From a virus: a stretch of DNA of 34,007 nucleotides. The translations under genes were made by a program, and so were the position numbers. Positions 470-13,721 of this stretch are shown here, piece by piece. How positions within the stretch are numbered: the stretch's first letter is position 1; the number at the start of each line of letters is the position of its first letter. Location: the IMG/VR virus record IMGVR_UViG_3300005436_000025, positions 1 to 34,007 of that record, one strand, 5' to 3'. The notes below the pieces were generated by a model. It had not been told where the DNA came from and ran no database searches. It saw only the letters and a program-made list of their open reading frames with translations.

Positions 470-1156
470 ATGAGCAGGCGCGCAGTCAGTCTCTTGAGCG
501 GTGGTCTCGACTCAACCACCCTCCTCTACCAACTCAAGTTCGAGGGCTTCGAACCGACCGCCCTCATCGTCGACTACGGACAGCGACACGCGATCGAGAT
601 GACGAAGGCCCAGGTCATCTGCGCGGTTGCTAACATTCCTTTCAAGCAGCTGAACCTGTCAGCCGCATTCGGCCCGCTCTTCGCCGGGGCTCAGAGCTCC
701 CAGGTCGGAGCGAAGGTCGACGTCCCGCACGGCCACTACGCCGCGGAGAACATGAAGACGACGATCGTCCCGAACCGCAACATGATGCTGCTGGCGATGG
801 CCGGCGCCCTCGCGGAGACGATCGGTGCGGAAGTCGTCGCGTACGCCGCTCACGCAGGTGACCACACGATCTACCCGGACTGCCGCCCGGAATTCTACGA
901 GAGCTGCGCTCAGACGCTCTTCAAGGCGACGGACGGTCGCGTCACACTCTACGCCCCGTTCGGCACGATCACCAAGGGCGATATCGCCAAGCGGGCCAAG
1001 GGCCTTCGCGTGCCCGTCGAGCTCACCTGGTCCTGCTACGACCCGCAGTTCGAGACCGGCATGTTCATCCACTGCGGCAAGTGCGGGACGTGCGTCGAAC
1101 GCAAGGAAGCGATGGCCGAAGCATTCGACGTCGATCCGACGAAGTACGCGGCGTGA
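470..1156 (+). CDS. queC: 7-cyano-7-deazaguanine (preQ0) synthase QueC
   Basis: QueC converts 7-carboxy-7-deazaguanine to preQ0 using ATP and ammonia, the last step of preQ0 synthesis. The 228-residue protein has the PP-loop ATP motif SGGLDS (residues 10-15), the TIVPNRN segment (98-104), YPDCRPEF (135-142), and the zinc-binding set C189, C202, C205, C208 (HCGKCGTC). Length and motif order are normal. ATG at 470 is chosen because AAGGAG lies at 455-460; the frame opens earlier at 392 but that stretch overlaps the terminator. There is no glutamine-amidotransferase fusion, which argues against an archaeosine-like product. Its stop overlaps the GTG start of the next gene. Together with queD, queE, folE and dpdA it points to DNA, not tRNA, modification. 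Confidence 0.95.
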   Translation: MSRRAVSLLSGGLDSTTLLYQLKFEGFEPTALIVDYGQRHAIEMTKAQVICAVANIPFKQLNLSAAFGPLFAGAQSSQVGAKVDVPHGHYAAENMKTTIVPNRNMMLLAMAGALAETIGAEVVAYAAHAGDHTIYPDCRPEFYESCAQTLFKATDGRVTLYAPFGTITKGDIAKRAKGLRVPVELTWSCYDPQFETGMFIHCGKCGTCVERKEAMAEAFDVDPTKYAA

Positions 1157-1371
1157 CGTGCAACTGGTGCGGAACGTCGGGACACTGCGACTGTCAGGAC
1201 CGGATCGCTTGCAAACGTGCAGGCGCTCCGGGCCACTTCCAGTGTGGCGTTTGCACGAAGCACCTCATCCCTAGGTTTAAGTGCGGGTGTACGATCCGTG
1301 AAGCTACCAACGAGCGTTACGATAAAATCGGAAGCTACGATCCGCCAGGACCGGATCAAAGCGAGGGTTGA
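1153..1371 (+). CDS. Small Cys-rich zinc-ribbon-like protein
   Basis: Unrecognised protein of 72 residues, starting at a GTG that overlaps the queC stop (GTGA), so it is probably translationally coupled to queC. It holds nine cysteines and several CxxC or CxC pairs (CNWC near residue 3, CDC, CGVC, CGC), which fits one or two structural zinc ribbons. Length and composition suggest a nucleic-acid- or protein-binding accessory. Its position suggests but does not show a link with the deazaguanine pathway. The coding frame was chosen over the other frames because it alone keeps the Cys spacing. Confidence 0.65.
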   Translation: MTCNWCGTSGHCDCQDRIACKRAGAPGHFQCGVCTKHLIPRFKCGCTIREATNERYDKIGSYDPPGPDQSEG

Positions 1372-1534
1372 TGCTCGTGCGGCGCATACACGGATGTACG
1401 AGAAGCTCTTGCAGCGGCTTCGCACTAGACCCGCAAGACCTCCAATGCGACCGGCGGAAGTGAACATCCGGGTCGAGTCGTACGAGTTGACGCATGCGGA
1501 GTTGAGAGTAATGCTTCGGGGAGGGCGGAAGTGA
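1298..1534 (+). CDS. Small basic hypothetical protein, start uncertain
   Basis: Unrecognised Arg/Ala-rich helical protein that ends at the TGA overlapping the next gene's GTG start. The region after about 1350 reads like a real protein (ARVDARAAHTRMYEKLLQRL and onward). The start is unclear: GTG 1298 gives 78 residues with a 74-nt overlap of the preceding gene; ATG 1394 gives 46 residues and no overlap. Neither has a good ribosome site. One copy of the repeated 12-mer TTGCAGCGGCTT lies inside it at 1409-1420. Confidence 0.45.
   Translation: MKLPTSVTIKSEATIRQDRIKARVDARAAHTRMYEKLLQRLRTRPARPPMRPAEVNIRVESYELTHAELRVMLRGGRK
1409..1420 (+). repeat. 12-mer TTGCAGCGGCTT, copy 1
   Basis: Exact copy inside the small basic gene; with copy 3 it extends to a shared 17-mer, TTGCAGCGGCTTCGCAC. 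Here it is read as codons for LQRLR. Confidence 0.6.
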
Positions 1535-1731
1535 TCTTCGGGTCGTTTGATGATATCAAGCCAGGGACCCACGTCGTGATCGTTCGAGACAGAGACGGAG
1601 CGGAAGTCGTTGGCGTCGTCCTCGGCCCCGCGACGAAGGAGGAATACCTCGAGTGGTGCAAGGACAACGGAGACACCGATGAACGAGAAATCGCAGAAGA
1701 CGCCAGGTTCTACCGCGCCAGCGTCGACTGA
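1531..1731 (+). CDS. Small hypothetical protein, beta-rich N-terminus
   Basis: Unrecognised, 66 residues, GTG start at 1531 overlapping the previous stop (GTGA) with a purine-rich GGGGAGGGCGGA just upstream. The first 35 residues alternate hydrophobic and polar positions (GTHVVIVRDRDGAEVVGVVLG), like a small SH3-type barrel; the rest is acidic and helical. It overlaps the next gene's start by about 50 nt in another frame. No function can be assigned. Confidence 0.6.
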   Translation: MIFGSFDDIKPGTHVVIVRDRDGAEVVGVVLGPATKEEYLEWCKDNGDTDEREIAEDARFYRASVD

Positions 1732-2539
1732 CGTTCTCCACCTGTGTTGGTGGGAGTACGAGGCTCTTCTCATGCACTTGCGCTCGCGTGCCGACCTCTG
1801 GGTCGAGTCATCGGACATGCCCGGTCTCTGGATGAGGCTCGAACCCCGTCAGGACGAGGACGCAGCCTTTACCGTGTTCTTCGCACCGCCGAAGGATGCA
1901 ACGTCCCTCTTCCGTCAGTACGGCGTCCACATTATCCCGGCACGATGGAACGCGGAGGAGGCTCGCGAATACCTCCTCTGGCTGATCAACCACTGGACCG
2001 GCTACCGCGAACGCCAGATTGCCGCCCGCTTCCTGGAGTGCGACCTTCACATCGACCATGTCACCGCCGGCCTCTCGGCGATCGCCCTCACGGGCCTAGC
2101 CTACCAGGAAGACGACACACCCGAACCGAGCACGCCTCCTCTGCAAGAAGAACTCTGGCCTCGGGACGATCCTCCCTCGTTCGACACGGACTTCATCTCG
2201 GACCCGACCCTCATCGGCACGTACCTCCTAGCAGGAAGTGCGGGATGGTTACAACTCCGGAGATTCGGCGGCATGATCAAAGCATCCATCATGCTCCGCG
2301 GCAAAGATGGCGTGACCAAAGTCCCTCTCCAGGGATTGGTGCGTCCGATGAATGGTCGGGTCCGGGATGCGGTTTCGGAGATTACCGGGAAGGACAAGCC
2401 TCACCCGGAGCCGCTTCCTCCGGGTGACGGCGTTAGCACGTGCTTCTACAACAACGAAGACTGTCGCGGAGAAGTCGTCCAGACCACCGGCCTCTGCGAA
2501 GCTCACAGCGGTCTTCTCGACGAACCGGAGGTCAAGTGA
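1679..2539 (+). CDS. Hypothetical phage protein with C-terminal Cys/His cluster
   Basis: Unrecognised protein of 286 residues. ATG 1679 is preferred to the longer opening at 1610 because the upstream extension is a low-complexity Arg/Ser shadow of the preceding gene. The N-terminal third is Trp-rich and mixed alpha/beta; a Pro/Glu-rich linker follows near residue 145; the C-terminus has C-x6-C-x9-C-x2-H, a possible zinc site. Its TGA overlaps the GTG start of the PD-(D/E)XK nuclease, so the two are probably cotranslated. This location suggests a recombination or replication accessory, but no motif supports a specific role. Confidence 0.65.
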   Translation: MNEKSQKTPGSTAPASTDVLHLCWWEYEALLMHLRSRADLWVESSDMPGLWMRLEPRQDEDAAFTVFFAPPKDATSLFRQYGVHIIPARWNAEEAREYLLWLINHWTGYRERQIAARFLECDLHIDHVTAGLSAIALTGLAYQEDDTPEPSTPPLQEELWPRDDPPSFDTDFISDPTLIGTYLLAGSAGWLQLRRFGGMIKASIMLRGKDGVTKVPLQGLVRPMNGRVRDAVSEITGKDKPHPEPLPPGDGVSTCFYNNEDCRGEVVQTTGLCEAHSGLLDEPEVK

Positions 2540-3642
2540 TCGATCACGTAAAGAAGTTTCCGATCGTCCTCAACCAATCGTCGGCGAAAGCCTTCCGCAA
2601 CTGCAAGCGCTACTTCGCCTGGCAACGGCTTGGGATGTACATCGACATCCTGAAAGCCCTCAACCCGGAGGTTTCCGATGACATCCTTCGTTCGCTACCA
2701 CAGCTTGTTCCTCCTGGTAAGCGTTCCGTTCTGGAGATTGGTACCGCCGTTCATGCCGGCCTTGCTACTTTCCACGCTGGCGGGATCGATATTAAGCATG
2801 ATTTTCCTACACCACCTACGGACCCGGAGAAGCAGGATGAGTACGACACCCTCTGTGAGATTGCCTCGCTATCACCACAGGAGCAGGCTCTCCATGTCGC
2901 GATCCAGACGCTCCGGAAGTCGCTGAAGAAGACAGTCCACACCGCGTTCGAGGACAAGTCGCTTCCTGAAGCCGAAGAGGTCGTCTCCCGCGTTCTGCTC
3001 GCGTACATCAAGCACTACTCCGACACCGACGAAGTCTGGAAACCTCTGAACCAGGAGATCGAGTTCCTCGTTGCCGTCGGCCCGGACGATTCCGGCGCCT
3101 ACCTTCGCGGACGTACAGACAACCTGTCGACGGCGAAAGGCGGGCTCTACATCGTCGACTATAAGACGGCAGGCCGGAACGATCCGAGGGATCTCCTGAA
3201 GTACGAGCTCGACGACCAGCTCTCGTCGTACATCTACGGGCTGACGAAGTACCTCACGGAGCAAGCCCGCAAGCGGGATCCGAACGCCGACCCGGTCTTC
3301 ATTCGTGGAGCGATCATCGACGTCCTCGTCAAGACGATCGTCCCTCAGTTCCTGCGTGAGATGTTCACCCGGTCGGTCGACGAGCTTCGTGAGTTCGAAG
3401 CTGAATTCATCGAGCTCTGCGACGAGCTCCGTGAGCGACTCCGTCGCGTTGCAGCCGGCGAAGACTGGAAGACCGTCTTCTACAAGAACACGGACAACTG
3501 CTTCCGGTACGGCACTTGTCCCTACCGTGACGTCTGTCTGAAAGACACGCCGATCCGCCGCAGGCTCTACGACAAACGCGAGCCCGACTACGTCGACGAT
3601 GCCCACACGAAGCTCATCGAGGAGTTCACCCGTGTCGCCTGA
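2536..3642 (+). CDS. Cas4/RecB-like PD-(D/E)XK nuclease with probable 4Fe-4S cluster
   Basis: Probable DNA exonuclease of 368 residues acting in phage recombination or DNA-end processing. Visible features are the N-terminal conserved Cys (C23 in RNCKRYF), H73 in EIGTAVHAGL, D195 in RGRTDN, the catalytic D208-x-K210 in YIVDYKTAG, Q228/Y232 of motif QxxxY (DDQLSSYIYG), and three C-terminal cysteines C322, C328, C334. One N-terminal plus three C-terminal cysteines is the iron-sulfur arrangement of Cas4 and AddB nucleases. GTG 2536 overlaps the previous stop; the longer open frame from 2440 is a shadow. No cas genes or repeats lie nearby, so a CRISPR adaptation role is unlikely. It is followed by a Sak4-like ATPase and a ssDNA-binding protein, a typical phage recombination set. 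Confidence 0.88.
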   Translation: MIDHVKKFPIVLNQSSAKAFRNCKRYFAWQRLGMYIDILKALNPEVSDDILRSLPQLVPPGKRSVLEIGTAVHAGLATFHAGGIDIKHDFPTPPTDPEKQDEYDTLCEIASLSPQEQALHVAIQTLRKSLKKTVHTAFEDKSLPEAEEVVSRVLLAYIKHYSDTDEVWKPLNQEIEFLVAVGPDDSGAYLRGRTDNLSTAKGGLYIVDYKTAGRNDPRDLLKYELDDQLSSYIYGLTKYLTEQARKRDPNADPVFIRGAIIDVLVKTIVPQFLREMFTRSVDELREFEAEFIELCDELRERLRRVAAGEDWKTVFYKNTDNCFRYGTCPYRDVCLKDTPIRRRLYDKREPDYVDDAHTKLIEEFTRVA

Positions 3643-3868
3643 AGGTCTCATGGAGCTCCTCGCTCGACACAACGACGACGCCTACCCCTGGGACCGCGTC
3701 GGTCACAAGCCGATGATCCCTGGATCCATCTACCCGGATCTCATCAAGCGAGAGCTAGCCCGAGCCTACATCGAATGGCGTCTGCAGGACCACCGCGACG
3801 TCTCCGACTACAGCCCGGCCCGCATCGCTTGGGAAAGGAGAGGACAGCGTCTCACTCGTGTTCGCTAA
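3632..3868 (+). CDS. Small hypothetical protein
   Basis: Unrecognised, 78 residues, GTG at 3632 overlapping the nuclease stop by 11 nt, with GAGGAG at 3619-3624 as ribosome site. Charged, with a mid-region LIKRELARAYIEWRLQDH likely to be helical. Its placement between nuclease and Sak4-like ATPase suggests the same transcript. No function is evident. Confidence 0.6.
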   Translation: MSPEGLMELLARHNDDAYPWDRVGHKPMIPGSIYPDLIKRELARAYIEWRLQDHRDVSDYSPARIAWERRGQRLTRVR

Positions 3869-3890
3869 CCGTATAGTTCAGAGGAGTCAA

Positions 3891-4103
3891 ATGACCAGAG
3901 AAGAACTGCTCCAGGAAGTGAAAGCGTACGTCGAGTCCCCCGAGTTCGTGGAAGCGGGCGGCACCGACGCGGACGGCAACGTCGACTTCGGGCCCGCGGG
4001 CGAAGCCCTCAAGGACTTCGTCGACGGTCTGGAAGAAGACGAGGCCGACGTCGAGGACGAGAACGCCGAAGGCAACGAAGGCTCGTCCGGGTCGGAGGGC
4101 TAA
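3891..4103 (+). CDS. Small acidic protein
   Basis: Unrecognised protein of 70 residues with a very acidic C-terminal half (Glu/Asp runs from about residue 42) ending in a Gly/Ser-rich tail. ATG 3891 is chosen because AGAGGAG lies 4 nt before it; a GTG at 3858 would add 11 residues without a ribosome site. The strong site suggests high expression. Acidic tails of this kind are common in ssDNA-binding partners and DNA mimics, but that remains a guess. Confidence 0.65.
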   Translation: MTREELLQEVKAYVESPEFVEAGGTDADGNVDFGPAGEALKDFVDGLEEDEADVEDENAEGNEGSSGSEG

Positions 4104-4106
4104 CGC

Positions 4107-4958
4107 ATGGCAACCGGAGTTACAACGAAGGGGAGCCTCCCCAGGCTTCAGCGAACAAACGAGCTGAAGGCGAGCTACGCGACGATACTCGGTTACGGCC
4201 CTGCCCGTGGAGGGAAGACTCGTTCAGTCGAACGGTGTCACGAAGCCGGCTTGAACCCGGTCATCATCGCAACAGAGCTCGGCGAAACCTCCGGTCTGCT
4301 CTCGTTGGCGTCCTCACCGATCGCATTCATCAAGGTGACCAGCCACGCGGAGATCATCGAAGTCCTGAAAGAGATGCAGCGCAAACCTGGGAAGATCGAG
4401 TACGAGCAGACCGAATTCGGTATGGCCGTTCTCGACAGCATCACCCAGTGGGGAGACTGGCCTCTCGATCGCTTCGTCGAGATCAAGGGTTGGGGAGACC
4501 TGGCTACGCCGGCCAGCTCCAAAGACCCTCGCTCCGCGTACGGATACCTCGCAGAAAAGGGGCGACAGCTGTACAAGGAACTGTTCGCTCTCCACGGTCA
4601 CGTGTACGTCATCGCCCGTGAGGGGATCTTCGGTAACGGGGAAGAAATTCCGTTCTTCGCCGCTCCGGAGCTCCCTGGCCAGAAACTCCCGCGAGAAGTC
4701 CCAGGTTGGCCCGACGCAACGATTCGGCTCCGCGTAGTCGCCGGCAGGTACCGGATGATTACGCAAGCCGAAGGTAACACACCGTGCGGAGTGAGGACGC
4801 CGTCAGGCTTCCCTCCACTTCCTCGCGAGTGTAACAACGACATCCCGGCACTCATCCGGTACATGACCGGGGATCGTTCGGCGTACACCGCCCTCGTACC
4901 GGAGAAACCACAGGCGGGTAACAAGCCCGCAGTGCAGCAAGCACAGGAGAAGAAGTAG
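4107..4958 (+). CDS. Sak4-like / AAA_24 RecA-fold ATPase
   Basis: Probable phage recombination ATPase of 283 residues. The Walker A motif GPARGGKTRS (residues 31-40) follows a short beta-strand (ATILGY) and a Walker B-type strand ends in MAVLDSITQ (D110). The overall shape (short N-terminus, RecA-like core, disordered Gln/Lys-rich tail) matches the AAA_24/Sak4 group, which assists single-strand annealing in phages. ATG 4107 is preceded by GGAGGG. The downstream neighbour is a DUF669-like ssDNA-binding protein, the usual partner, and a Cas4-like nuclease lies upstream. Assignment to the ATPase group is firm; the Sak4 label is by family resemblance and context. Confidence 0.82.
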   Translation: MATGVTTKGSLPRLQRTNELKASYATILGYGPARGGKTRSVERCHEAGLNPVIIATELGETSGLLSLASSPIAFIKVTSHAEIIEVLKEMQRKPGKIEYEQTEFGMAVLDSITQWGDWPLDRFVEIKGWGDLATPASSKDPRSAYGYLAEKGRQLYKELFALHGHVYVIAREGIFGNGEEIPFFAAPELPGQKLPREVPGWPDATIRLRVVAGRYRMITQAEGNTPCGVRTPSGFPPLPRECNNDIPALIRYMTGDRSAYTALVPEKPQAGNKPAVQQAQEKK

Positions 4959-4960
4959 AC

Positions 4961-5383
4961 ATGGTTCAGATTCCTCAGCAGCATCAGCAGCGCGTCGGCG
5001 ACCTCCCGGAAGGCGGAAAGCCGATCCCGGAAGGCGTGTACCACCTGCGCGTCGACAAGGCCGTGTACAAGGAGTCGAAGGAGAAGAAGACTCCGATGAT
5101 CGAGTGCACGCTCACCGTCTTCGGTCCCGCCGAGGCCGAGGAGTTCGTCGGTCGGAAGGTCTTCGACAACCTCATGCTCACGGGTGATGGTGCGTTCCGC
5201 ACGCGCCAGCTGCTCGAAGCGTCGGGCGAAGACGCCGACTACGTTCTCGAGGACAGCGACCAGCTGCTTCAGCGTGAAGTCGCCGCGGTCGTCGGCATCG
5301 AGAAGGAGCGGAAGGACGAGGCGACCGGGAAGACGTATCCGGAGCGCAACCGCATCGGTCGCTACCAGGCGATCGAGGCGTAG
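4961..5383 (+). CDS. DUF669-like single-stranded DNA-binding protein
   Basis: Likely ssDNA-binding protein of 140 residues. The central segment resembles the DUF669 phage family: EGVYHLRVDKAVYKESKEKK (residues about 25-44), then alternating strands (ECTLTVFGP), GRKVFDNLML, and FRTRQLLEASGED. It ends in a second strand pair with charged loops (VVGIEKERKD). The start 2 nt after the ATPase stop, and the pairing with that ATPase, support a role in recombination/replication. Alternative: an unrelated OB-fold protein. Confidence 0.75.
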   Translation: MVQIPQQHQQRVGDLPEGGKPIPEGVYHLRVDKAVYKESKEKKTPMIECTLTVFGPAEAEEFVGRKVFDNLMLTGDGAFRTRQLLEASGEDADYVLEDSDQLLQREVAAVVGIEKERKDEATGKTYPERNRIGRYQAIEA

Positions 5384-5390
5384 GCGTCAA

Positions 5391-5450
5391 GCTCTGATGA
5401 TGTCGGAGCGCTAGCTGGACTTTAGCGAGGCTCGGAATGGTCATCAGCGT
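5391..5450 (+). ncRNA. Foldable RNA segment after the DUF669-like gene
   Basis: Two nested stems can form. CTGATGA (5394-5400) pairs perfectly with TCATCAG (5441-5447). Inside, GAGC-GCTA (5406-5413) pairs with TAGC (5423-5426) and GCTC (5430-5433) across a 3-nt bulge. It lies just before a terminator hairpin, so it may be part of an mRNA 3' end or a processed RNA. No known family is recognised. Confidence 0.35.
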
Positions 5451-5453
5451 GAA

Positions 5454-5481
5454 GCCGGGGGGCGTTACTCCCCGGCACTTT
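5454..5481 (+). terminator. Intrinsic terminator of the recombination block
   Basis: Perfect 7-bp GC stem, GCCGGGG (5454-5460) with CCCCGGC (5470-5476), 9-nt loop, followed by ACTTT. The T tail is short, so termination may be partial. It separates the recombination genes from the downstream run that includes queD, queE and folE. Confidence 0.65.
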
Positions 5482-5482
5482 G

Positions 5483-5563
5483 TAGAGACGGCACCGTCAG
5501 ATACAAGAGGGACATTCCCCAACGACCTGACATAACGGCGAAAGCCATCAGGTGCCGTCTCTA
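5483..5563 (+). ncRNA. Three-way-junction RNA in the leader of the queD-queE-folE run
   Basis: A 13-bp perfect stem closes the element: TAGAGACGGCACC (5483-5495) pairs with GGTGCCGTCTCTA (5551-5563). Inside, hairpin one is GTCAG (5496-5500) with CTGAC (5527-5531), topped by GGGA/TCCC (5509-5512/5516-5519). Hairpin two is GGC-GAAA-GCC (5537-5546), a stem with a GNRA tetraloop. An alternative pairing, ACGGC (5535-5539) with GCCGT (5554-5558), would compete with the outer stem, as in a switch. It lies 40 nt before the start of a gene run that makes preQ0 precursors. It does not match the preQ1 riboswitch classes known to me. Function unknown. Confidence 0.55.
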
Positions 5564-5568
5564 GAGAG

Positions 5569-5580
5569 TTGCAGCGGCTT
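5569..5580 (+). repeat. 12-mer TTGCAGCGGCTT, copy 2 (non-coding)
   Basis: Exact copy of a 12-base word present five times in the window, always on the + strand. This copy is the only one outside a gene, 5 nt after the three-way-junction RNA and 23 nt before the start of the DUF1599-like gene. It is followed by an AT-rich TAATAAACTA. Confidence 0.6.
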
Positions 5581-5603
5581 AATAAACTACGCACGAGGTC
5601 ACC

Positions 5604-5948
5604 ATGCCGACAATTGACGAAGTAGTGAAGTTCAGGCAGGAGATGTACGAGAGGTCGACGGCCCTGATCAAGTCGAAGGGGCATGACTATAATCGCAAGC
5701 AACAGATGGATGGGGACACCCTCTTCAACCTGCAAGTGTGCAAGCTCCTCGGGATCACACCGACTGCGGAACACGGGATTCTCGTCCGTCTCTCGGACAA
5801 GTTCATGAGGTTGATCTCCCTCGTCGACGCGGACCCGGCTACGGTCGGAGAGTCGTTTGATGATACTGTCGTAGACATTCACAACTACGTCGACTACGTC
5901 GCACTCCTCAGGCGACTGCGTACGGCGCCGAATGGAGGCTCGAAATGA
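5604..5948 (+). CDS. DUF1599/Nmad1-like alpha-helical protein
   Basis: Probable member of the DUF1599 family (also called nucleotide-modification-associated domain 1), 114 residues, all alpha-helical. Supporting segments are KSKGHDYNR (residues about 23-31), DTLFNL, ILVRLSDKFMRLISLV (about 60-75), and DDTVVDIHNYVDY (about 88-100). The conserved His/Asp/Glu pattern on helices resembles MazG/dUTPase-type NTP pyrophosphatases, which suggests nucleotide-pool cleaning, perhaps of an unwanted deoxynucleotide. It is the first gene after the structured leader and is followed by queD, which fits a base-modification context. The enzymatic role is inferred, not seen. ATG 5604 has GAGGT upstream. Confidence 0.65.
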   Translation: MPTIDEVVKFRQEMYERSTALIKSKGHDYNRKQQMDGDTLFNLQVCKLLGITPTAEHGILVRLSDKFMRLISLVDADPATVGESFDDTVVDIHNYVDYVALLRRLRTAPNGGSK

Positions 5949-6133
5949 AAGCACAACGATACGTGATGGGGACGGGAGTCGACGTTACAATCCTCGTCAA
6001 CGAATGCTCACCGCTCGGGGCACAATTCCTCGAGAAGCACAAGGATGACATCCGCCTCGCGATCACGCAGGCGACAACCGACCTCGACGACAAGCTTCGT
6101 CGTCTGCTCTCAGCGAAGGAGAAGGCATCATGA
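5945..6133 (+). CDS. Small hypothetical protein between Nmad1-like gene and queD
   Basis: Unrecognised, 62 residues, ATGA overlaps with both the previous stop and the queD start, so it is embedded in a coupled translation chain. The N-terminal half is beta-like (YVMGTGVDVTILV), the C-terminal half helical and basic. No motif is visible. Confidence 0.6.
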   Translation: MKAQRYVMGTGVDVTILVNECSPLGAQFLEKHKDDIRLAITQATTDLDDKLRRLLSAKEKAS

Positions 6134-6567
6134 GCCGTCTGGTCTACCGTCACGAATGGGACATGGGGCATCGCCTCCCACTGCACCAGGGCAAGTGCCG
6201 AAGGCTCCACGGTCACCGCTACGTCGCGGAGATCCACCTGACCGGACCCATCCAGAAGGAAGGGCCTGCGACGGGAATGGTCGTCGACTTCTACGAGCTG
6301 AAGAACGCGCTCAAGAAGATCGTTGACGACGAGTGGGACCACAAGACGATGCTCTACAACGAGGATCCGCTCGCAGGGGCGGTTCGCATCCTTCCGAACG
6401 AAATCGTCGGAATCGTCTGCGTCCCGTTCATGCCGACCGCGGAAAACATCGCGGCAGAACTCCTCCGCCTACTCCGCGTCGAATTCCCAGCGCTCGGCGT
6501 GTTCGACCCAGTCGTCGAAGGTGTTCGCGTCTGGGAGACTCCTAACGGCTCTGCCATCGCGAACTAG
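6130..6567 (+). CDS. queD: 6-carboxy-5,6,7,8-tetrahydropterin synthase QueD
   Basis: QueD converts dihydroneopterin triphosphate to carboxytetrahydropterin, the second step of preQ0 synthesis. The 145-residue protein keeps the zinc histidines H14, H27 and H29 (the latter two in LHGH), the catalytic Cys C23 in the GKCRRLHGH motif, the MVVDFYELK strand (residues 50-58), DHKTML (70-75), PTAENIA (102-108) and the C-terminal RVWET with the pterin-anchoring Glu (E136). Length is that of the usual single-domain enzyme. ATG 6130 overlaps the preceding stop. It shares a run with queE and folE. Confidence 0.95.
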   Translation: MSRLVYRHEWDMGHRLPLHQGKCRRLHGHRYVAEIHLTGPIQKEGPATGMVVDFYELKNALKKIVDDEWDHKTMLYNEDPLAGAVRILPNEIVGIVCVPFMPTAENIAAELLRLLRVEFPALGVFDPVVEGVRVWETPNGSAIAN

Positions 6568-6569
6568 CC

Positions 6570-6791
6570 GTGCCGCGCGGGAAGTTTGAGAGGCGTAAGG
6601 CTAACGGCTACCTTCGGTGGCGCGAGGCGCTTACGCAGAAGTTCTACGAACTCGAACGGACCTACGGTACGACGGAAGCCGTTATCCGAATCTGGCGAGG
6701 TGGAATGCGTGCAGCATACGACGCACGACGCCTCGGACGAACACGTTCACGATTGGAGCATCATGACATACCGAATCGCCGAGAAGTTTAA
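6570..6791 (+). CDS. Small basic hypothetical protein overlapping queE
   Basis: Unrecognised, 73 residues, GTG start 2 nt after queD, no clear ribosome site, 29-nt overlap with the queE start. Basic (PRGKFERRK at the N-terminus), with a likely helix REALTQKFYELERTYG. It explains an otherwise empty 195-nt gap and its codons look coding; the competing frame upstream of queE does not read like protein. Confidence 0.5.
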   Translation: MPRGKFERRKANGYLRWREALTQKFYELERTYGTTEAVIRIWRGGMRAAYDARRLGRTRSRLEHHDIPNRREV

Positions 6792-7470
6792 GAGCCCTCA
6801 GGGCGAAGGGATCTACACGGGAACCCCGATGGCTTTCATCCGGTTCGTCGGATGCAGCGTCGGGAAGACCATCTGCCAGCACTGCGATACCGACTTCGAC
6901 ACGATACTGAACTGGCGGGGAGGTGGCGAATTCTCCGATCACGAACTCATCGAATACGTCGTGCGTCGCCCCCGCTACGACCACGTCTGCTTCACTGGCG
7001 GCGAGCCATTCGACCAGGACCTCGAGAACCTGATCAAAGCGTTCATCCAGCTCGGCGTGATGGTCCACATCGAAACGTCCGGCACGAAGAAACGACCCTT
7101 CGGCGAACTCGGTATCCAGTCCTCAATGCTCTGGACCTGCGTCAGCCCGAAGCCCGGCTTCCTCGAAGAGGTCGTCATGTCTGCCGACGAAGTCAAGGTC
7201 ATCGTCCCCGGCCTCGGGGACATCAATCCGAAGGTTCCTTCACACTGGGCGATTCAACCGTTCGCAGAGTGCGACGGCCAGCTCAAGCGGTGGCCTGACA
7301 TCACCGACGCCCTCCGCTGGGCGGACGCTGGCAAAACCGTCTTCCTCCAACCCCGGAACGGGAAGGTCGAGATCGACAAGAACAACCTCATGTACGTCCT
7401 CGACCTCCTCCGGGAATACCCGCAGTTGAGGATCTCCACTCAACTGCATAAGATCCTGAAGGTGCAGTAG
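6763..7470 (+). CDS. queE: 7-carboxy-7-deazaguanine synthase QueE (radical SAM)
   Basis: QueE contracts carboxytetrahydropterin to 7-carboxy-7-deazaguanine using SAM and a 4Fe-4S cluster. The protein has 235 residues, with SPQGEG (residues 11-16) for substrate binding, cluster cysteines C31, C38 and C41, CDTDF (41-45) and the SAM-binding FTGGEP (77-82). The cluster loop is C-x6-C-x2-C, unlike the classical C-x3-C-x2-C and unlike the long-loop (C-x14-C-x2-C) type with which it shares CDTDF. ATG 6763 puts the protein start right before the conserved YRIAEKFKSPQGEG; the longer frame from 6586 overlaps the preceding gene. The next gene starts in its stop codon. Confidence 0.93.
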   Translation: MTYRIAEKFKSPQGEGIYTGTPMAFIRFVGCSVGKTICQHCDTDFDTILNWRGGGEFSDHELIEYVVRRPRYDHVCFTGGEPFDQDLENLIKAFIQLGVMVHIETSGTKKRPFGELGIQSSMLWTCVSPKPGFLEEVVMSADEVKVIVPGLGDINPKVPSHWAIQPFAECDGQLKRWPDITDALRWADAGKTVFLQPRNGKVEIDKNNLMYVLDLLREYPQLRISTQLHKILKVQ

Positions 7471-7649
7471 TGGAAGACACCAAGATCATGTGGACGATCT
7501 ACCACATCCCTTCCGCCAGCTGGCATCAGGGAGACTCGAACCTTCAGCTCTACTGGGCGGAACATGAAGCCCGACTCGAGTGTCTTCGACGCGGAGGCGG
7601 TCTTGAAGTCTGGAAGCCGCTTCGCGTAGTCGTCCGGGTGAAGCCATGA
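7470..7649 (+). CDS. Short hypothetical protein after queE
   Basis: A 59-residue frame from GTG 7470, which shares one base with the queE TAG, to TGA 7647-7649, which overlaps the next ATG. Its sequence (VEDTKIMWTIYHIPSASWHQ and onward) is Trp/Leu-rich with a basic end and no known motif. It fills a gap with the same coupled-overlap style as its neighbours. Confidence 0.6.
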   Translation: MEDTKIMWTIYHIPSASWHQGDSNLQLYWAEHEARLECLRRGGGLEVWKPLRVVVRVKP

Positions 7650-8020
7650 AGGTCCTCGACCCAGGTCACGCGTACCAGCTTCAGTACCTCGACGGTCCTC
7701 AGGACAAGGGGTGGGATACACTCGTCTTCGTCAAGCGCGAGGGAGAGAACTACCCCGGTAACGTCGGGCACCACGCCGGGACGACGATGCAAGAGGTCCT
7801 CCGAGCTCTGATCGACCGAGTCCAGTACGTCAACGGTCAAGTTCCAGACCCGACGAACGAGCAGGTACTTCAACACCTTCGCTCGGCGATCTGGTACCTC
7901 GAACTCCGTGCAGCTCGGCGTCACGGTCGACAGTTCCGTGCTCCTGAACGCTTTATCGAAACCTCTCCGACGTGCCCGAAGTGCTTGCACATCGGATGCG
8001 AAGGAGCTTGCCATCCATGA
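7646..8020 (+). CDS. Conserved-looking phage protein with C-terminal zinc knuckle
   Basis: Not assigned to a named family, but its build recalls a common phage hypothetical: N-terminal PGHAYQLQYLDG, a loop GHHAGTTMQEVLRALIDRVQ (residues about 41-60), a helical LQHLRSAIWYLELRAARRHGR, then a C-terminal CPKC-x4-C-x3-C cluster that could bind zinc. It has 124 residues with ATG overlapping the preceding stop. It lies between queE and folE, so a link to modification is possible but unproven. Confidence 0.65.
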   Translation: MKVLDPGHAYQLQYLDGPQDKGWDTLVFVKREGENYPGNVGHHAGTTMQEVLRALIDRVQYVNGQVPDPTNEQVLQHLRSAIWYLELRAARRHGRQFRAPERFIETSPTCPKCLHIGCEGACHP

Positions 8021-8256
8021 TGTACCCGGGGCGCGTCCCACCGATCGGACCAGAGTCGACTCTCCTCGAGACGGCTCTCCACTTCCGTCGGCCTGGAGGC
8101 TCGATCCGGATCAACGGAGAGACGGCTCCGGGACTTTCCGTCTACGACCCGAAGACCGATACATGGTACCTTTATACAAACGCCTACATTCTGACGCTGC
8201 GGGAGAACACACTAAACGCCATGCTCCTCCCGCCGAACGTCAAGGAGACGAAATGA
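8017..8256 (+). CDS. Small hypothetical protein
   Basis: Unrecognised, about 80 residues. Two adjacent ATG codons (8017, 8020) overlap the previous stop. The central part is beta-rich (SIRINGETAPGLSVYDPKTD, then TWYLYTNAYILTL), like a small barrel or sandwich. It ends over the start of the next gene. Confidence 0.55.
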   Translation: MMYPGRVPPIGPESTLLETALHFRRPGGSIRINGETAPGLSVYDPKTDTWYLYTNAYILTLRENTLNAMLLPPNVKETK

Positions 8257-8459
8257 CTCGCGGGCCTCGAATCCAAGTCGTACTCCACCGAGATGAGCCG
8301 GACGCAGCGGAAGACCTCGTCATGTTCGCGAGGGCACTCTCCCGGAAGCATATCCTCTCGTGGGATTGTAAGGTCGTCGAGTTGGACACGTCCGAAGAGT
8401 CGGAGACCGCAATTGTCACTATTCAGTTCGACGACGCTCCGTCCGTCGTCCCGGAGTAA
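8253..8459 (+). CDS. Small hypothetical protein
   Basis: Unrecognised, 68 residues, ATG 8253 with AAGGAG at 8242-8247. Alternating strand and helix (IQVVLHRDEPDAAEDLVMFA, then TAIVTIQF), resembling a small alpha/beta fold. The frame opens earlier at 7908 but that part is a shadow of two upstream genes. Confidence 0.55.
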   Translation: MTRGPRIQVVLHRDEPDAAEDLVMFARALSRKHILSWDCKVVELDTSEESETAIVTIQFDDAPSVVPE

Positions 8460-8461
8460 TC

Positions 8462-8956
8462 ATGCATCCAGCAGCATATGACTACGTCCACGCGTCCGTC
8501 CAACGGTACAAGCTCCGCTACCTCCCGATGCTCGAAATCGGCTCCCGCCTCATCAACGGGACGATCCGAGACCTCTTCACGACGACGTATGGGATTGATA
8601 TCCTCCCAGGCGCCTACGTCGACACCGTCGCCTGCGGTAGCACGTACACACCGCCGACCCCTCCCGAAGTCATCGTCTGCTGCGAGGTCTTCGAGCACAC
8701 GCCCCTCGCAGAAGCCATATGTCACAATGTGTTCAGGATTCTCAAACCCGGAGGTTACTTCATCGTTACTGCAGCTGGCCTCGCACGTGCTCCGCACAGC
8801 GCCTTCAACGGCGGAGGCCTTCGAGAGAACGAGTTCTACCGGAACGTCAGCGCAACCGATCTCGCGAGCTGGCTCTCCGAATTCCACATCCTCGAGATCG
8901 AAGTTCGCGGAGAAGATATCCGCGCCGTCGCCCGAAAGGAACCCCTCGATGCGTAA
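8462..8956 (+). CDS. Class I SAM-dependent methyltransferase
   Basis: Probable Rossmann-fold methyltransferase of 164 residues (Methyltransf_11-like). Motif I is recognisable but degenerate (MLEIGSRLINGTI, about residues 23-35). A motif II region ends in GIDILPG, and VIVCCEVFEHT (about 69-79) and ILKPGGYFIVTAAG (about 94-107) match motifs IV-V of the family. It lies directly before folE and overlaps it by 8 nt, so it is expressed with preQ0 genes. Its substrate cannot be read from the sequence: DNA base, deazaguanine derivative or a host molecule are all possible. DpdM, the known phage dPreQ1 methylase, is described with a different fold, so that label is not used. Confidence 0.75.
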   Translation: MHPAAYDYVHASVQRYKLRYLPMLEIGSRLINGTIRDLFTTTYGIDILPGAYVDTVACGSTYTPPTPPEVIVCCEVFEHTPLAEAICHNVFRILKPGGYFIVTAAGLARAPHSAFNGGGLRENEFYRNVSATDLASWLSEFHILEIEVRGEDIRAVARKEPLDA

Positions 8957-9530
8957 TCGTCGTGCAACTGATAATCCGCACCCGCCTCACCGCGACATCG
9001 TGAAGATGGCTAAGGGCGTTCGCACCCTCCTCGAAGGAATGGGCTGCGACTTGAAAGACCCGAACTACGTAGGAACGCCGGAGCGCGTAGCGCGAATGTT
9101 CTCCGAGATGCTGACACCCCAGCCGAACAACTGGGCGACGTTCCCTTCACGGAGCTCGGACCTCGTCGTCCTTCGCAACCACAAGGTCGTCGCGATCTGC
9201 CCGCACCACCTTCAGCCCGTCGAGATCAAGTGCTTCGTCGGGTACATCCCCCACAAGAAGACGCTGGGGATCTCCAAGCTCGCCCGCGTCGTCGAAGAGC
9301 AACTCTGGCAGCCGATGCTCCAGGAGGACCTCGCTGCTGCCGTCGCCGAATCCCTTGACCGTGTCCTGGAGCCGAAGGGCGTCGGCGTCATCCTCTCCGG
9401 GGTTCACGGGTGCATGCGCTTCCGCGGAGTCGAGTCCGATGGAGACGTCGTCACGGACGTGATGAAAGGCGTCTTCCTGCTGAACCCGGCTGCCCGCATG
9501 GAATTCCTCCATATCGTGGGGCAGGTGTAA
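8949..9530 (+). CDS. folE: GTP cyclohydrolase I FolE
   Basis: FolE turns GTP into dihydroneopterin triphosphate, the first step toward preQ0. The protein has 193 residues. It shows GTPERVARM (residues 42-50), the zinc ligands C84 and H87 in CPHHLQP and C155 in HGCMRFRG (equivalents of E. coli C110, H113, C181), and a normal helical N-terminus. ATG 8949 overlaps the methyltransferase stop; the longer open frame from 8478 is that gene's shadow. In this setting it most likely feeds QueD rather than folate. Confidence 0.94.
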   Translation: MRNRRATDNPHPPHRDIVKMAKGVRTLLEGMGCDLKDPNYVGTPERVARMFSEMLTPQPNNWATFPSRSSDLVVLRNHKVVAICPHHLQPVEIKCFVGYIPHKKTLGISKLARVVEEQLWQPMLQEDLAAAVAESLDRVLEPKGVGVILSGVHGCMRFRGVESDGDVVTDVMKGVFLLNPAARMEFLHIVGQV

Positions 9531-9531
9531 C

Positions 9532-9819
9532 ATGGAACGCTGGCATACTCTCGCCGTCTACCGTTCGTACAAATACATCGGGACTCAGGCCGACGTCTGG
9601 GAGCATCCCGACTTCACTGCAACCGTCTGGTCCTTCACCCGTGGAGGTTCCTCGCCGCAGATTCACGAGGTCGACGTTCCTCCGGACTACGACAAAGGCC
9701 TGCTCTCGACCGTGATGAACGGCCACGCCTGCACGCTCGAGACGTTCGACGAAGCTCTCGTGGAACTCGGGTACACACGGGACGACATCCTCAACGCTGT
9801 TCGGAGCGCCGGAGCATGA
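9532..9819 (+). CDS. Hypothetical protein before the DNA polymerase
   Basis: Unrecognised, 95 residues, ATG 2 nt after the folE stop, its end overlapping the polymerase start by 4 nt (ATGA). Aromatic N-terminus (WHTLAVYRSYKYIG) with beta character, then an acidic helical C-terminus. No motif seen. Confidence 0.6.
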   Translation: MERWHTLAVYRSYKYIGTQADVWEHPDFTATVWSFTRGGSSPQIHEVDVPPDYDKGLLSTVMNGHACTLETFDEALVELGYTRDDILNAVRSAGA

Positions 9820-12563
9820 GCGAGGACATTGTCCAGAATGCAAGAGTCGAGGTCGACCCAGTCGAGGACAATCCGTTCGGGAAACCGGATGAGTGTCGGC
9901 GATGCACCCTGTTCAAAGAACCGGGGATGGTCAAGGGTCACGGGAATCGCAACGCAAGTATCTTCTACCTAGGGGAGGGACCTGGTGCCGAAGAAGTTGA
10001 CACGCCGATCTGGTTCAACGAGGACAAGCACGGGTTCGCCCGCGCGAACATGCAAGTCGTCCTCCGTGTACGCGGCGACGGTGAGCCTGTCACGAGTACC
10101 GTCGGATTTCGACCTGAGAGGATGGCTCCGTTTGTTGGAGGTTCGGGGCGCATCCGCAACGCTCTGCTTGCACACGCCGGACTGCACAAGGACGTACATC
10201 TTTTTACCTCCAACTGCGTGCGGTGCAGACCGCCGGGTAACCGCAAGCCGACGCAATACGAAATCGCGTGCTGCGCGCACTTCCTCCTAGAGGAGCTCGA
10301 AGATGTCGACCCGAACGTCATCATCGCCGCGGGGGACACCGCGCTCGAAACCCTCACGGGCAAGAAGAAGATCGGGATCTACCGAGGAGTCCCTACCTCC
10401 GGACCGCGACGGCAACTTCCCGGAGCCTCCGATGCATCTCGATCGCAAGGGAGCGGAGGAGCTGTACCAGCGAATCCAGGAGCAACTGCTGAAGGATCCT
10501 CACCAAGTCTCCAGCCTAGTGATCGGGAAGTCGGCGGAGGAGCTGTACAGGATGTTCGGCCCGAGCGCTACAAAGTCTTCCCAACCTGGCACCCCGCCTT
10601 TATCATGCGGAGCCAGCACAACTGGGCCTTCGCCGTCCACGACCTGGCGCGCGCGAAAGTTGAGAGCTCGTATCCGGAAATCCGTCGTATACCGTTCGTC
10701 GTTGACCGACAGGCAAGCCTTGGGGGAACTCGAGAGACTCTGCTCAGTGCTGCTCGAAGACGGGGAGCCATCACGTTCGACTTCGAAACTACTGGTCTCG
10801 AACCGGACTCCAGTGGTATTGAAATGTGCGGTTTTGTCGGGGAGCCAGAGAAAGCTTTCGTGTACGATTGGACCCTTGGTGCTCAGCAGCTCTTCGATGA
10901 GGTTTTTGCAGACCCTGACATCGAGATCTGCGGTCAGAACATACTCTACTTCGACATCCCGTACGCGGAAGCGAAGGGGCGAAAGGTAAGGTGGGACGAA
11001 CGTATCTTCGACACGATGGTCGTGATGCACCTGTGCAACAGCTCCTATGGACAGGTGAGTGTATCGTCACAGAACTCAGGGTCCTATGCTGGAGCGCGGG
11101 GCACGGAAAAAGACCTCGCGTTTATCGCGTCGAATTACACAGACCTCGAATACTGGAAGTCGAAGGAAAACTATCGCAACGACAAGCGCGGAGTCTGTGG
11201 CTTTGACGTGATCGCGACGGACCGTTCGGCCTACGGCCCTCAGGGCCTGAAGCAGGAGCTGATCTCGTACGGGATGTACGACCTATACTACAAGCATGTA
11301 CTTCCCGTGCACAGGCCCCTCCGCAAGATGACCACGCGAGGCGTTCGGATCCACGAAGACCGTGCTGCCCGCTGGAGCATCGTCCTCGAGCGGGAAGCCC
11401 GACGACAAGAACAGGTCTTGAAGGAGGGACTCGGCGATCCCTTCCTCAACCTGAATTCTCCCCAACAGCTGAAGGCCCTACTCTACGACAAGCTCGGCCT
11501 ACCCGTCCAGTACAAGATCGACAAGAAGCGGGGACGAGTCCCGACGACTGACAAAGACGCCATCGAACGGCTCTCGCAGATCGCTCCCGAGAACGCGATC
11601 CTGATGTCCATCGTGAACATCCGTCACATGGACAAGATGAACAGTACATACGTCCGACGTGGCCTCGAGCTCGGACGCTTGCACCCCAAATTCGGAGTGA
11701 GTAAGGCAGCCAATGGCCGATTCAACGGTTGGGACCCGAACGCTCAAAACGTGCCCGAGCAGATGCGGGATATGTGGATCCCGGACTCTGATGACTACGT
11801 TCTCCTCAGCGCCGACTCCTCTCAGATTGAATGGCGCAACTCGATGGTGCTGTCTGGCGACCCTGTGGGCTTGGAGCTACTCGCGAGCGGGGCTGACATA
11901 CACAAAGCATCGTATGCTGAGGCGTTCGGCGTCCCGATTTCGTCGGTCACGAAAGCCCAGCGCGACCTCACGAAGTTCATCGTTTACGGCCTCGCTTACG
12001 GTCGGGGAGCGGCTAGCATTGCGGCTGGGAATAACCTCCCATTCAACGACGTCGAAACGTTCATCCGGAACTTCTTCGCACGGTTCAAGGTCTTCGGCGA
12101 GTGGCGTGAGCGTCTCCCGGAGCTCGTGAAGAAGCAGCAGTACCTGGCCAATCCGTTCATGAGGCGCCGTTGGTGGTATACCAGGGAGATCACGGAGATC
12201 TACAACTTCCCTCCGTCATCGACTGCAGCCGATATGATGTACGAAGAAGTCATCCAGCTCGACCAACAGCTGCCGAAGGGTGCGGATCTCGTCTTAACGG
12301 TCCACGACGAAGTCGTCGTCCACTGTCACAAAGATGTCGTCAAGGAAGCCGCCCTCTGCATCAAGACGGTCATGCAACAGCCTTGGGACCTGATCGTCAA
12401 CTTCAGCGACCACCCGGAGAACGTACGGAAGCACTACCCGAACGGCTGGTTCTGCCCTGCGGACCTTCACGCTGGTACCGACTGGGCGATGTGCAAGTCG
12501 AAGAACCCGGAGAAGATCAAGCAGCGTGATGAACTGGAGAAGTACCTTGGCATTGCCGCTTAA
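9816..12563 (+). CDS. Family A DNA polymerase with N-terminal uracil-DNA-glycosylase domain
   Basis: Replicative polymerase of 915 residues. Residues 1-270 match family-4-type UDG: C27-x2-C30, GEGPG (about 53), PFVG, TSNCVRCRPPGNR (about 131-143), and WHPAF (about 258-262). A 3'-5' exonuclease follows: FDFETTGLEP (about 319), NILYFDIPY and YGMYDLYYKHV. Polymerase motif A is ADSSQIEWR (about 666), motif B R-x3-K-x3-Y-x3-YG (RDLTKFIVYGLAYGRG, about 714), motif C VHDE (about 829). The residue matching E. coli F762 is Tyr, as in T7 polymerase. Residues about 193-248 lie in a different natural frame (see findings), so the UDG domain may be damaged or misassembled. UDG-polymerase fusions are known in phages such as SPO1. 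Confidence 0.92.
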   Translation: MSEDIVQNARVEVDPVEDNPFGKPDECRRCTLFKEPGMVKGHGNRNASIFYLGEGPGAEEVDTPIWFNEDKHGFARANMQVVLRVRGDGEPVTSTVGFRPERMAPFVGGSGRIRNALLAHAGLHKDVHLFTSNCVRCRPPGNRKPTQYEIACCAHFLLEELEDVDPNVIIAAGDTALETLTGKKKIGIYRGVPTSGPRRQLPGASDASRSQGSGGAVPANPGATAEGSSPSLQPSDREVGGGAVQDVRPERYKVFPTWHPAFIMRSQHNWAFAVHDLARAKVESSYPEIRRIPFVVDRQASLGGTRETLLSAARRRGAITFDFETTGLEPDSSGIEMCGFVGEPEKAFVYDWTLGAQQLFDEVFADPDIEICGQNILYFDIPYAEAKGRKVRWDERIFDTMVVMHLCNSSYGQVSVSSQNSGSYAGARGTEKDLAFIASNYTDLEYWKSKENYRNDKRGVCGFDVIATDRSAYGPQGLKQELISYGMYDLYYKHVLPVHRPLRKMTTRGVRIHEDRAARWSIVLEREARRQEQVLKEGLGDPFLNLNSPQQLKALLYDKLGLPVQYKIDKKRGRVPTTDKDAIERLSQIAPENAILMSIVNIRHMDKMNSTYVRRGLELGRLHPKFGVSKAANGRFNGWDPNAQNVPEQMRDMWIPDSDDYVLLSADSSQIEWRNSMVLSGDPVGLELLASGADIHKASYAEAFGVPISSVTKAQRDLTKFIVYGLAYGRGAASIAAGNNLPFNDVETFIRNFFARFKVFGEWRERLPELVKKQQYLANPFMRRRWWYTREITEIYNFPPSSTAADMMYEEVIQLDQQLPKGADLVLTVHDEVVVHCHKDVVKEAALCIKTVMQQPWDLIVNFSDHPENVRKHYPNGWFCPADLHAGTDWAMCKSKNPEKIKQRDELEKYLGIAA

Positions 12564-12573
12564 GGAGGGATAC

Positions 12574-12984
12574 GTGGACACAGTCGACAAGTTCGAGAAG
12601 GGGAAAGGGTACAAGGTGAACAGCCTCGAAGACCTGAAGGCGATTGCTGAAGCAGTCGGGTGCACGCTCTACAAGGGAGCGGACGACGAACTCCTCTGTG
12701 ACTTCGACGAGATCAACTTCGGAGACTTCGTCGACCTCTCTGGAGTCGGAGCCCGCTCGATCATCGGCGAACGCTTTCAGCTTCAGCTGCACGACGGCTG
12801 GCGGAGCCGCAACGGGAAGACACACGTCGTCTACAAGATGGATCGTGTACTCCCGCCGCTCGCACGGATCGCCCTGCAAGCCGCCCTCGGATCCGACCCA
12901 CGACGGGAAGCCCTGGCTGTATACGAGTTCCTGTCCGCCGGAACGGACACGATCTCGCTCTTCAAGCCGAAGGAGGCGAAGTGA
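12574..12984 (+). CDS. Hypothetical protein before dpdA
   Basis: Unrecognised, 136 residues. GTG 12574 is chosen because a perfect AAGGAGG lies just upstream; the open frame from 12526 overlaps the polymerase. It begins with a helix-rich region (SLEDLKAIAEAVGC), continues with acidic DFDEINFGDFVDLSG and a beta segment, and ends Pro/Lys-rich. Its stop overlaps the dpdA start, so it is coupled to the transglycosylase and could be a partner, but nothing in it shows that. Confidence 0.65.
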   Translation: MDTVDKFEKGKGYKVNSLEDLKAIAEAVGCTLYKGADDELLCDFDEINFGDFVDLSGVGARSIIGERFQLQLHDGWRSRNGKTHVVYKMDRVLPPLARIALQAALGSDPRREALAVYEFLSAGTDTISLFKPKEAK

Positions 12985-13721
12985 TCCAGCTTGCGACGGA
13001 AATCCCAGTTGCCCACTGGCATCTGAGCTCGTGGGCGGATCTCGACTTCGTGCTAGCCCACAAGGTCCTGGACGACGCGACGTACGCGCTCCGCCTGAAG
13101 AACAGGCATCGGGATCGTACGCTGATCCTGGACAACTCCATGCACGAACTCGGTGAGGCGTTGCCGATCGAGAAGCTGAAGGATGCTGCAGCGCGGTGCC
13201 GAGCCGACTACGTCATCCCTCCGGATCGGCTCGGCGACACCTCCTGGAACACGTATCAGTTCCAACGTGCACGGAGACTCTTCTCCGAGACGGGAATCGC
13301 CGTCGTCGGCGTTATGTGCGGAGAGGACTCGATCGACCGTCAGATCGCGCTGGAGACGTACTACGAGACCACGAGCATGCTCCTTCTCCCATTCCGCCTA
13401 CCGCGTCTCCGGTGGTTTCTGGAGCATCAGGAAGCGATGACGCACTTCCGCCGGATTCACCTTCTCGGCGTGAACACCCTCGACGAGCTCCGTCACTTTG
13501 CAGCGGCTTCGCACCAACACACTAGCGTGACGTGGTCCGTCGACACGGGGAAAGCGTTCAAGTGGGCGATGCTCGGGAAGAGGCTTGAGGACCTCGAGGA
13601 TGTGAGGAAGTCGATTCCGCAGAAGGAGCTCCTGGAAATCGAGGAGGTTACGCAGGAGCAGAAGGATCTGGCGTACGAGAACACGATGTTCCTGAAGAAG
13701 GTGTGTAACGGAGAAGCATGA
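12981..13721 (+). CDS. dpdA: DNA deazaguanine transglycosylase DpdA (TGT-like)
   Basis: Probable enzyme that swaps guanine in DNA for preQ0 or a derivative. The 246-residue protein shows the phage DpdA signature ILDNSMHELGE (residues 49-59, D51), VIPPDRLGD (78-85, D81/D85), GVMCGED (109-115), LLLPFRLPR (133-141), HLLGVNTLDELR (159-170) and SVDTGKA (185-191, with D187 as the likely nucleophile matching TGT D280). TIM-barrel order is kept, but the C-terminal zinc site (C-x-C-x2-C...H) of bacterial TGT is absent: only one Cys remains near the end. GTG 12981 overlaps the preceding stop. folE, queD, queE and queC in the same arm supply the substrate. A tRNA-modifying TGT is unlikely because of size and the missing zinc site. 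Confidence 0.85.
   Translation: MIQLATEIPVAHWHLSSWADLDFVLAHKVLDDATYALRLKNRHRDRTLILDNSMHELGEALPIEKLKDAAARCRADYVIPPDRLGDTSWNTYQFQRARRLFSETGIAVVGVMCGEDSIDRQIALETYYETTSMLLLPFRLPRLRWFLEHQEAMTHFRRIHLLGVNTLDELRHFAAASHQHTSVTWSVDTGKAFKWAMLGKRLEDLEDVRKSIPQKELLEIEEVTQEQKDLAYENTMFLKKVCNGEA
13498..13509 (+). repeat. 12-mer TTGCAGCGGCTT, copy 3 (in dpdA)
   Basis: Exact copy inside dpdA, read in a different frame from copy 1 (codons for FAAAS), so protein conservation cannot explain both. Shares a 17-mer with copy 1. Confidence 0.6.

Follow-up and report, generated by a model that had tools for sequence, protein, structure and literature searches.

A complete preQ0 pathway and a short putative DNA guanine transglycosylase predict 7-deazaguanine-modified DNA in a lineage of uncultured phages

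In dPreQ0 phages, Rosebush and CAjan among them, the common phage type of DpdA modifies about 30% of guanines. Both phages carry the same minimal set of genes, that set gives dPreQ0, and in CAjan deletion of dpdA removes both the modified base and the resistance to restriction (PMC6884629). In the Campylobacter phages CP220 and CPt10, 100% of dG is replaced by dADG (PMC8306585), and ADG is the intermediate through which QueC works (PMC13329287).

Here we analyse a 34,007-base virus record (the window, by which we mean the whole stretch of DNA at its full length) that has a GC content of 60%. Its replication arm occupies the plus strand from 1 to about 16.9 kb, and its structural arm lies on the minus strand. 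In gene content the record resembles the dPreQ0-type phages (group 2 of Hutinet et al. 2019, PMC6884629), as it encodes FolE, QueD, QueE, QueC and a DpdA without an amidotransferase (ArcS or Gat-QueC) and without QueF. It differs from them in its DpdA, which is 246 aa long, whereas theirs have 297-363 aa, and which is assigned below to a different lineage. Also, the genes form one tight cluster in Rosebush-like Saguaro, whereas those of the window are dispersed.

The preQ0 pathway genes and their surroundings

The four pathway genes were identified with Pfam, PHROGs and NCBIfam profiles (Table 1), and their products retain the residues expected of working enzymes. For QueC we considered an alternative start at 392, although the ribosome-binding site is better before 470. 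All four motifs whose importance was shown by mutation in E. coli (SGGxDS, YxQxHxxE, VPxRN and YPDC; PMC13329287), and by which we recognised a canonical QueC (cluster 1), are found in the window protein. The protein also has four cysteines at the zinc motif, together with the CY pair, but its spacing departs from C(x)8CxxCxxC in that 12 residues rather than 8 precede the second cysteine. QueD retains zinc histidines 14, 27 and 29, as well as Cys23 and Asp70-His71, and FolE, which is identical in the sister genome (see below), retains the zinc ligands in CPHH and HGCM. QueE has the motifs SPQGEG, Cx6CxxCD and GGEP. Its cluster motif is Cx6CxxC, as opposed to the classical radical-SAM Cx3CxxC, and since the same spacing is present in most relatives we consider it a trait of the lineage.

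Table 1. Positions of the 7-deazaguanine genes and adjoining genes in the window
Feature	Position	Strand	Basis of identification
queC, 7-cyano-7-deazaguanine (preQ0) synthase, 228 aa	470..1156	+	PF06508 E 3e-54; NCBIfam TIGR00364 over cut-off
queD, 6-carboxytetrahydropterin synthase	6130..6567	+	PF01242 E 1e-27; PHROG 2389; TIGR03367 E 1e-22, below cut-off
queE, radical SAM 7-carboxy-7-deazaguanine synthase	6763..7470	+	PHROG 2076 E 5e-21; TIGR04508 E 6e-26, below cut-off
Small SAM-dependent methyltransferase, between queE and folE	8462..8956	+	PF13489 E 2e-7
folE, GTP cyclohydrolase I	8949..9530	+	PF01227 E 5e-40
Family A DNA polymerase with N-terminal uracil-DNA-glycosylase domain	9816..12563	+	PF00476 E 5e-58; PF03167 E 2e-17
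dpdA, putative short DNA guanine transglycosylase, CP220/immuto (DpdA3-like) group, 246 aa	12981..13721	+	Fold, profile, tree
DUF3987 primase/helicase-like protein	13718..15133	+	PF13148 E 1e-17

A megablast search with 25 kb of the window against GenBank phages found no match. One relative, a contig of 60,776 bases from an uncultured virus (L002, G001), here called the sister, is 95-96% identical to the window along nearly its whole length. The ends of the contig carry a direct repeat of 127 bases, so that the genome is closed or nearly so, and this 60.8-kb sequence with overlapping ends was used as the complete relative in searches for absent genes. Comparison of the window with the sister, taken at 96% identity, gave dN/dS values of 0.07 for QueC, 0.02 for QueD, 0 for FolE and 0.02 for DpdA, a degree of purifying selection that excludes chance as the reason these genes are intact. 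The outlier among the pathway genes is queE, with only 76% identity and a dN/dS of 0.41. Its middle part (7085-7288 in the window) has no blastn match in the sister, and the frame is open in both, which points to an exchange of that part of the gene through a recombination patch.

A preliminary description of this DNA had stated that folE, queD, queE and queC are all present with their catalytic residues intact, and this is borne out by the profile matches, the motifs and the purifying selection. It had also described the pathway genes and dpdA as spread over 13 kb in one direction, and indeed all five lie on the plus strand within that span. Its statements that QueF and an amidotransferase-QueC fusion are absent hold as well. 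At the curated cut-off no QueF was found in the window, in the sister with its closing contig ends or in the other relatives, while the controls were positive; two relatives gave weak matches to QueF (16 bits, below the cut-off), which were judged to be cross-matches to FolE, which has the same fold. No amidotransferase-QueC fusion is encoded either, as the Gat-QueC profile matches only its QueC half, and the ArcS-linked domain DUF5591 had no match.

Of 29 related contigs, nearly all repeat the arrangement queD-queE-folE-polymerase-dpdA-primase. In most of these relatives a Cas4-like nuclease, a Sak4-like protein and a DUF669 protein are encoded upstream, with queC farther upstream still; QueC was detected in 16 of 20 records and QueD in 13 of 14. 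At least one gap in the module, that in L003, is explained by the contig having been cut inside it. In nearly all relatives dpdA has the polymerase gene as its neighbour upstream, and in most it has the DUF3987 gene, which in the window overlaps the dpdA stop by 4 bases, as its neighbour downstream. A similar arm is found in phages BSP7, Youna2 and StAshley, which share with the window a helicase, the Cas4-like nuclease, a P-loop protein and DUF669, along with QueC, QueD, QueE, FolE, a short transglycosylase (annotated as a "hypothetical protein") and a family A polymerase. The sequences are far apart, however, and the transglycosylases can be linked only via intermediate members or profiles.

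Several other features of these genomes deserve mention in their own right. The uracil-DNA-glycosylase domain of the polymerase (PF03167) spans residues 41-268, and the polymerase is kept in nearly all relatives. A gene for a 137-aa protein of no recognised family (12571-12984) overlaps the dpdA start by 4 bases, and among the relatives only the sister and L004 have it at the corresponding position; it is possible that its product is an accessory of DpdA. In the named phages CP220, CC_R7, BSP7 and Youna2 a thymidylate-kinase-like gene often adjoins dpdA, and in immuto one is close by; none was recognised beside the window dpdA. A small gene at 7646-8020, present in the window, L003 and L007 and missing from the sister, corresponds to about 370 bases that were cleanly inserted or lost. 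In the part of the sister outside the window (L040-L043) there are genes for a NADAR-domain protein and a circularly permuted YpsA (SLOG) protein, families that are linked to nucleotide or base chemistry, and the YpsA (SLOG) gene lies just upstream of the queC arm. Two candidates for a role in modification were set aside: the methyltransferase at 8462 as a tailoring enzyme, as it is unconserved, occurring only in the window and the sister, and the protein at 5604 as a nucleotide-modification protein, as its PF07659 score was 12 against a cut-off of 25.

A short transglycosylase of the DpdA kind

The dpdA product has no family in Pfam, PHROGs or NCBIfam, and tblastn with it against GenBank phages found no match. 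Its AlphaFold2 model (mean pLDDT 95.5), in contrast, was most similar in a Foldseek search of the PDB to 7ui4, the DNA preQ0 insertase DpdA, followed by tRNA-guanine transglycosylases (TGTs), and a second structural aligner matched it to TGT with a Z score of 17.5 over 226 residues. In a BFVD fold search the DpdA2 of Vibrio phage nt-1 appeared at rank 6. A PDB sequence search with profiles of its relatives gave no convincing match, so the fold assignment depends on the AlphaFold2 model. Across 20 aligned members of its clade, D51-N52 and E56 (LDN-S/G-xxE), P81-D82, H160, G163, D188-T189 and K191 are invariant. In a profile alignment to the DpdA of the 9g/Rosebush type, D51, D82, H160-G163 and D188 fall on the conserved D72, D114, H196-G199 and D215, and the catalytic aspartates are conserved; when only E. 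coli TGT was compared with the clade, hhalign gave a weak match (E 0.06), with HLLG in register with YLMGVG. Judged on the model and these motifs, the protein is a guanine transglycosylase of the DpdA kind.

Does such an enzyme, with its preQ0, serve the tRNA of the host, through queuosine, and not DNA? The fold that it has in common with TGTs would allow this. We nevertheless consider it very improbable because the Pfam TGT family PF01702 had no match in the window or in five related records (all 14 controls were positive), and the TGT zinc motif CxCxxC is absent from the window protein, which has three scattered cysteines instead. Moreover, QueF, which is needed for preQ1, is lacking, no tRNA genes were found in the window, and in nearly all relatives dpdA is flanked by the genes for a DNA polymerase and a primase. 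The window protein has its fold and catalytic residues in common with the common phage DpdA (9g, Seurat, Saguaro) and TGT, but a search with a single sequence does not connect it to them, it has no TGT zinc site and it lies on a separate branch.

Its clade comprises proteins of about 245 aa from 29 loci in contigs of uncultured viruses; a search of bacterial and archaeal genome contigs found no relatives. When the divergent members L025 and L032 were used in tblastn, matches were obtained in Campylobacter phages (CP220 and others), Flavobacterium phage immuto, Bacillus phage BSP7 and Weizmannia phage Youna2, and the BSP7 protein in turn led to Cellulophaga phage phiST, Chryseobacterium phage MA9V-3 and Brevundimonas phage StAshley. 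Nearly all these short enzymes of named phages are annotated as hypothetical proteins, that of immuto being annotated as a DNA guanine transglycosylase. Profile comparison of the clade with the CP220/immuto/BSP7/phiST set gave a probability of 99.9% and an E value of 1.7e-33 over 235 columns (hhalign), whereas comparison with the 9g/Rosebush type gave an E value of 4.6e-6 over 153 columns, consistent with remote homology only. Likewise, the clade HMM matched all eight named short members (E 5e-30 to 7e-6), including those of the firehammerviruses CP220 and CPt10 and of immuto (E 3e-24 and 5e-30), with which identity is about 24-26%, while its best match to a DpdA of the common type had an E value of only 9. 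In a maximum-likelihood tree, built without the nt-1 DpdA2, the clade is one group (support 95/94) that falls among the short enzymes, well separated in branch from those of the common type, and the tree gave no supported order for the deeper branches inside the short group, CP220 and immuto included. Neither in the HMM search nor in the tree did the window protein group with 9g, Seurat and Saguaro.

By its sequence, then, the window DpdA belongs with the short CP220/immuto/BSP7/phiST transglycosylases, which we take to be "DpdA3", and its clade is a new, previously unannotated lineage of a known kind of enzyme. The preliminary description was right to place a TGT-like DpdA in the same arm as the pathway genes, as the structural matches to 7ui4 and then TGTs and the intact catalytic motifs attest, and there is good support for its reading of a complete preQ0 pathway joined by a transglycosylase that inserts into DNA, dPreQ0 being the simplest product; what it missed is that the DpdA is of the short and not the common lineage. 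This membership matters because it changes the modification density and the sequence context that are to be expected.

The inserted base and the density of replacement

We consider it probable (roughly 0.83) that preQ0 is inserted into the DNA of this phage after replication. FolE, QueD, QueE and QueC would convert GTP to preQ0, and DpdA would then exchange guanine in the phage's own replicated DNA for this base, yielding 2'-deoxy-7-cyano-7-deazaguanosine, the altered position 7 of which would block many restriction enzymes. It is by analogy with Rosebush and CAjan that the enzyme is predicted to act on DNA rather than tRNA, that preQ0 is the expected final base and that protection from restriction is its likely effect.

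The gene set taken by itself fits insertion of preQ0 or of its precursors ADG and CDG. An enzyme that accepts the QueC intermediate ADG, or CDG, would leave a base like the dADG of CP220, whose DNA differs in this from the dPreQ0 predicted here and which is the best studied relative of the window DpdA. QueC does work through ADG (PMC13329287), and its zinc loop in the window is the longer one described above, with 12 residues in place of 8. Yet this QueC retains every residue shown to be necessary for the formation of preQ0, and dPreQ0 is the base in Rosebush and CAjan, whose gene set is the same, so that we regard ADG or CDG as an unlikely final base. Immuto differs from the window in another respect, as genes for QueF and a formyltransferase lie beside its dpdA.

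If preQ0 is the inserted base, at how many guanines is it inserted? A stronger form of the reading that we prefer is that a short DpdA with little or no sequence preference would replace most or all of them. Under the name DpdA3, Cui et al. in 2023 reportedly described a subfamily with which guanine can be replaced completely, a description that CP220 fits. The profile comparisons above, which join the clade to the CP220/immuto group and set it far from the 9g/Rosebush type, argue in the same direction, as do the replacement of 100% of dG in CP220 and CPt10 (PMC8306585) and the architecture of the window enzyme, a bare barrel without the extra parts of the common enzymes. Against this, the unsettled branch order in the short group means that the trait may not be ancestral, and a genome of 60% GC would make a far larger demand for preQ0 than an AT-rich Campylobacter phage. 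On balance we hold near-complete replacement to be possible but not probable. With less certainty than the insertion of preQ0 itself, a high density, perhaps above that of Rosebush, is suggested by the kinship with CP220 and by the lack of an extra domain. The proposal in full, that an unannotated lineage of minimal transglycosylases would put preQ0 at all or nearly all guanines of phages of about 60% GC, base by base after replication, is one that we put forward tentatively and with some doubt.

Meaning for 7-deazaguanine phages

As the nearest studied relatives of the window DpdA come from phages in which every guanine is replaced, the genome described here is probably disguised chemically from bacterial restriction enzymes. 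Current profile libraries are blind to this lineage of transglycosylases, and related genes are annotated as hypothetical proteins in phages of Campylobacter, Bacillus, Weizmannia, Brevundimonas and Cellulophaga, so that phages with 7-deazaguanines have probably been under-counted. A clear question arising from our observations is "Do the short enzymes act without sequence preference, replacing every guanine even in GC-rich DNA?" An enzyme of that nature, if it exists, would be useful for rewriting guanines in DNA in vitro. In the phages themselves, near-complete replacement, if true, would mean that about one third of all bases are 7-deazaguanine, that is, a dG-free DNA in a GC-rich genome, which would be unusual at 60% GC.
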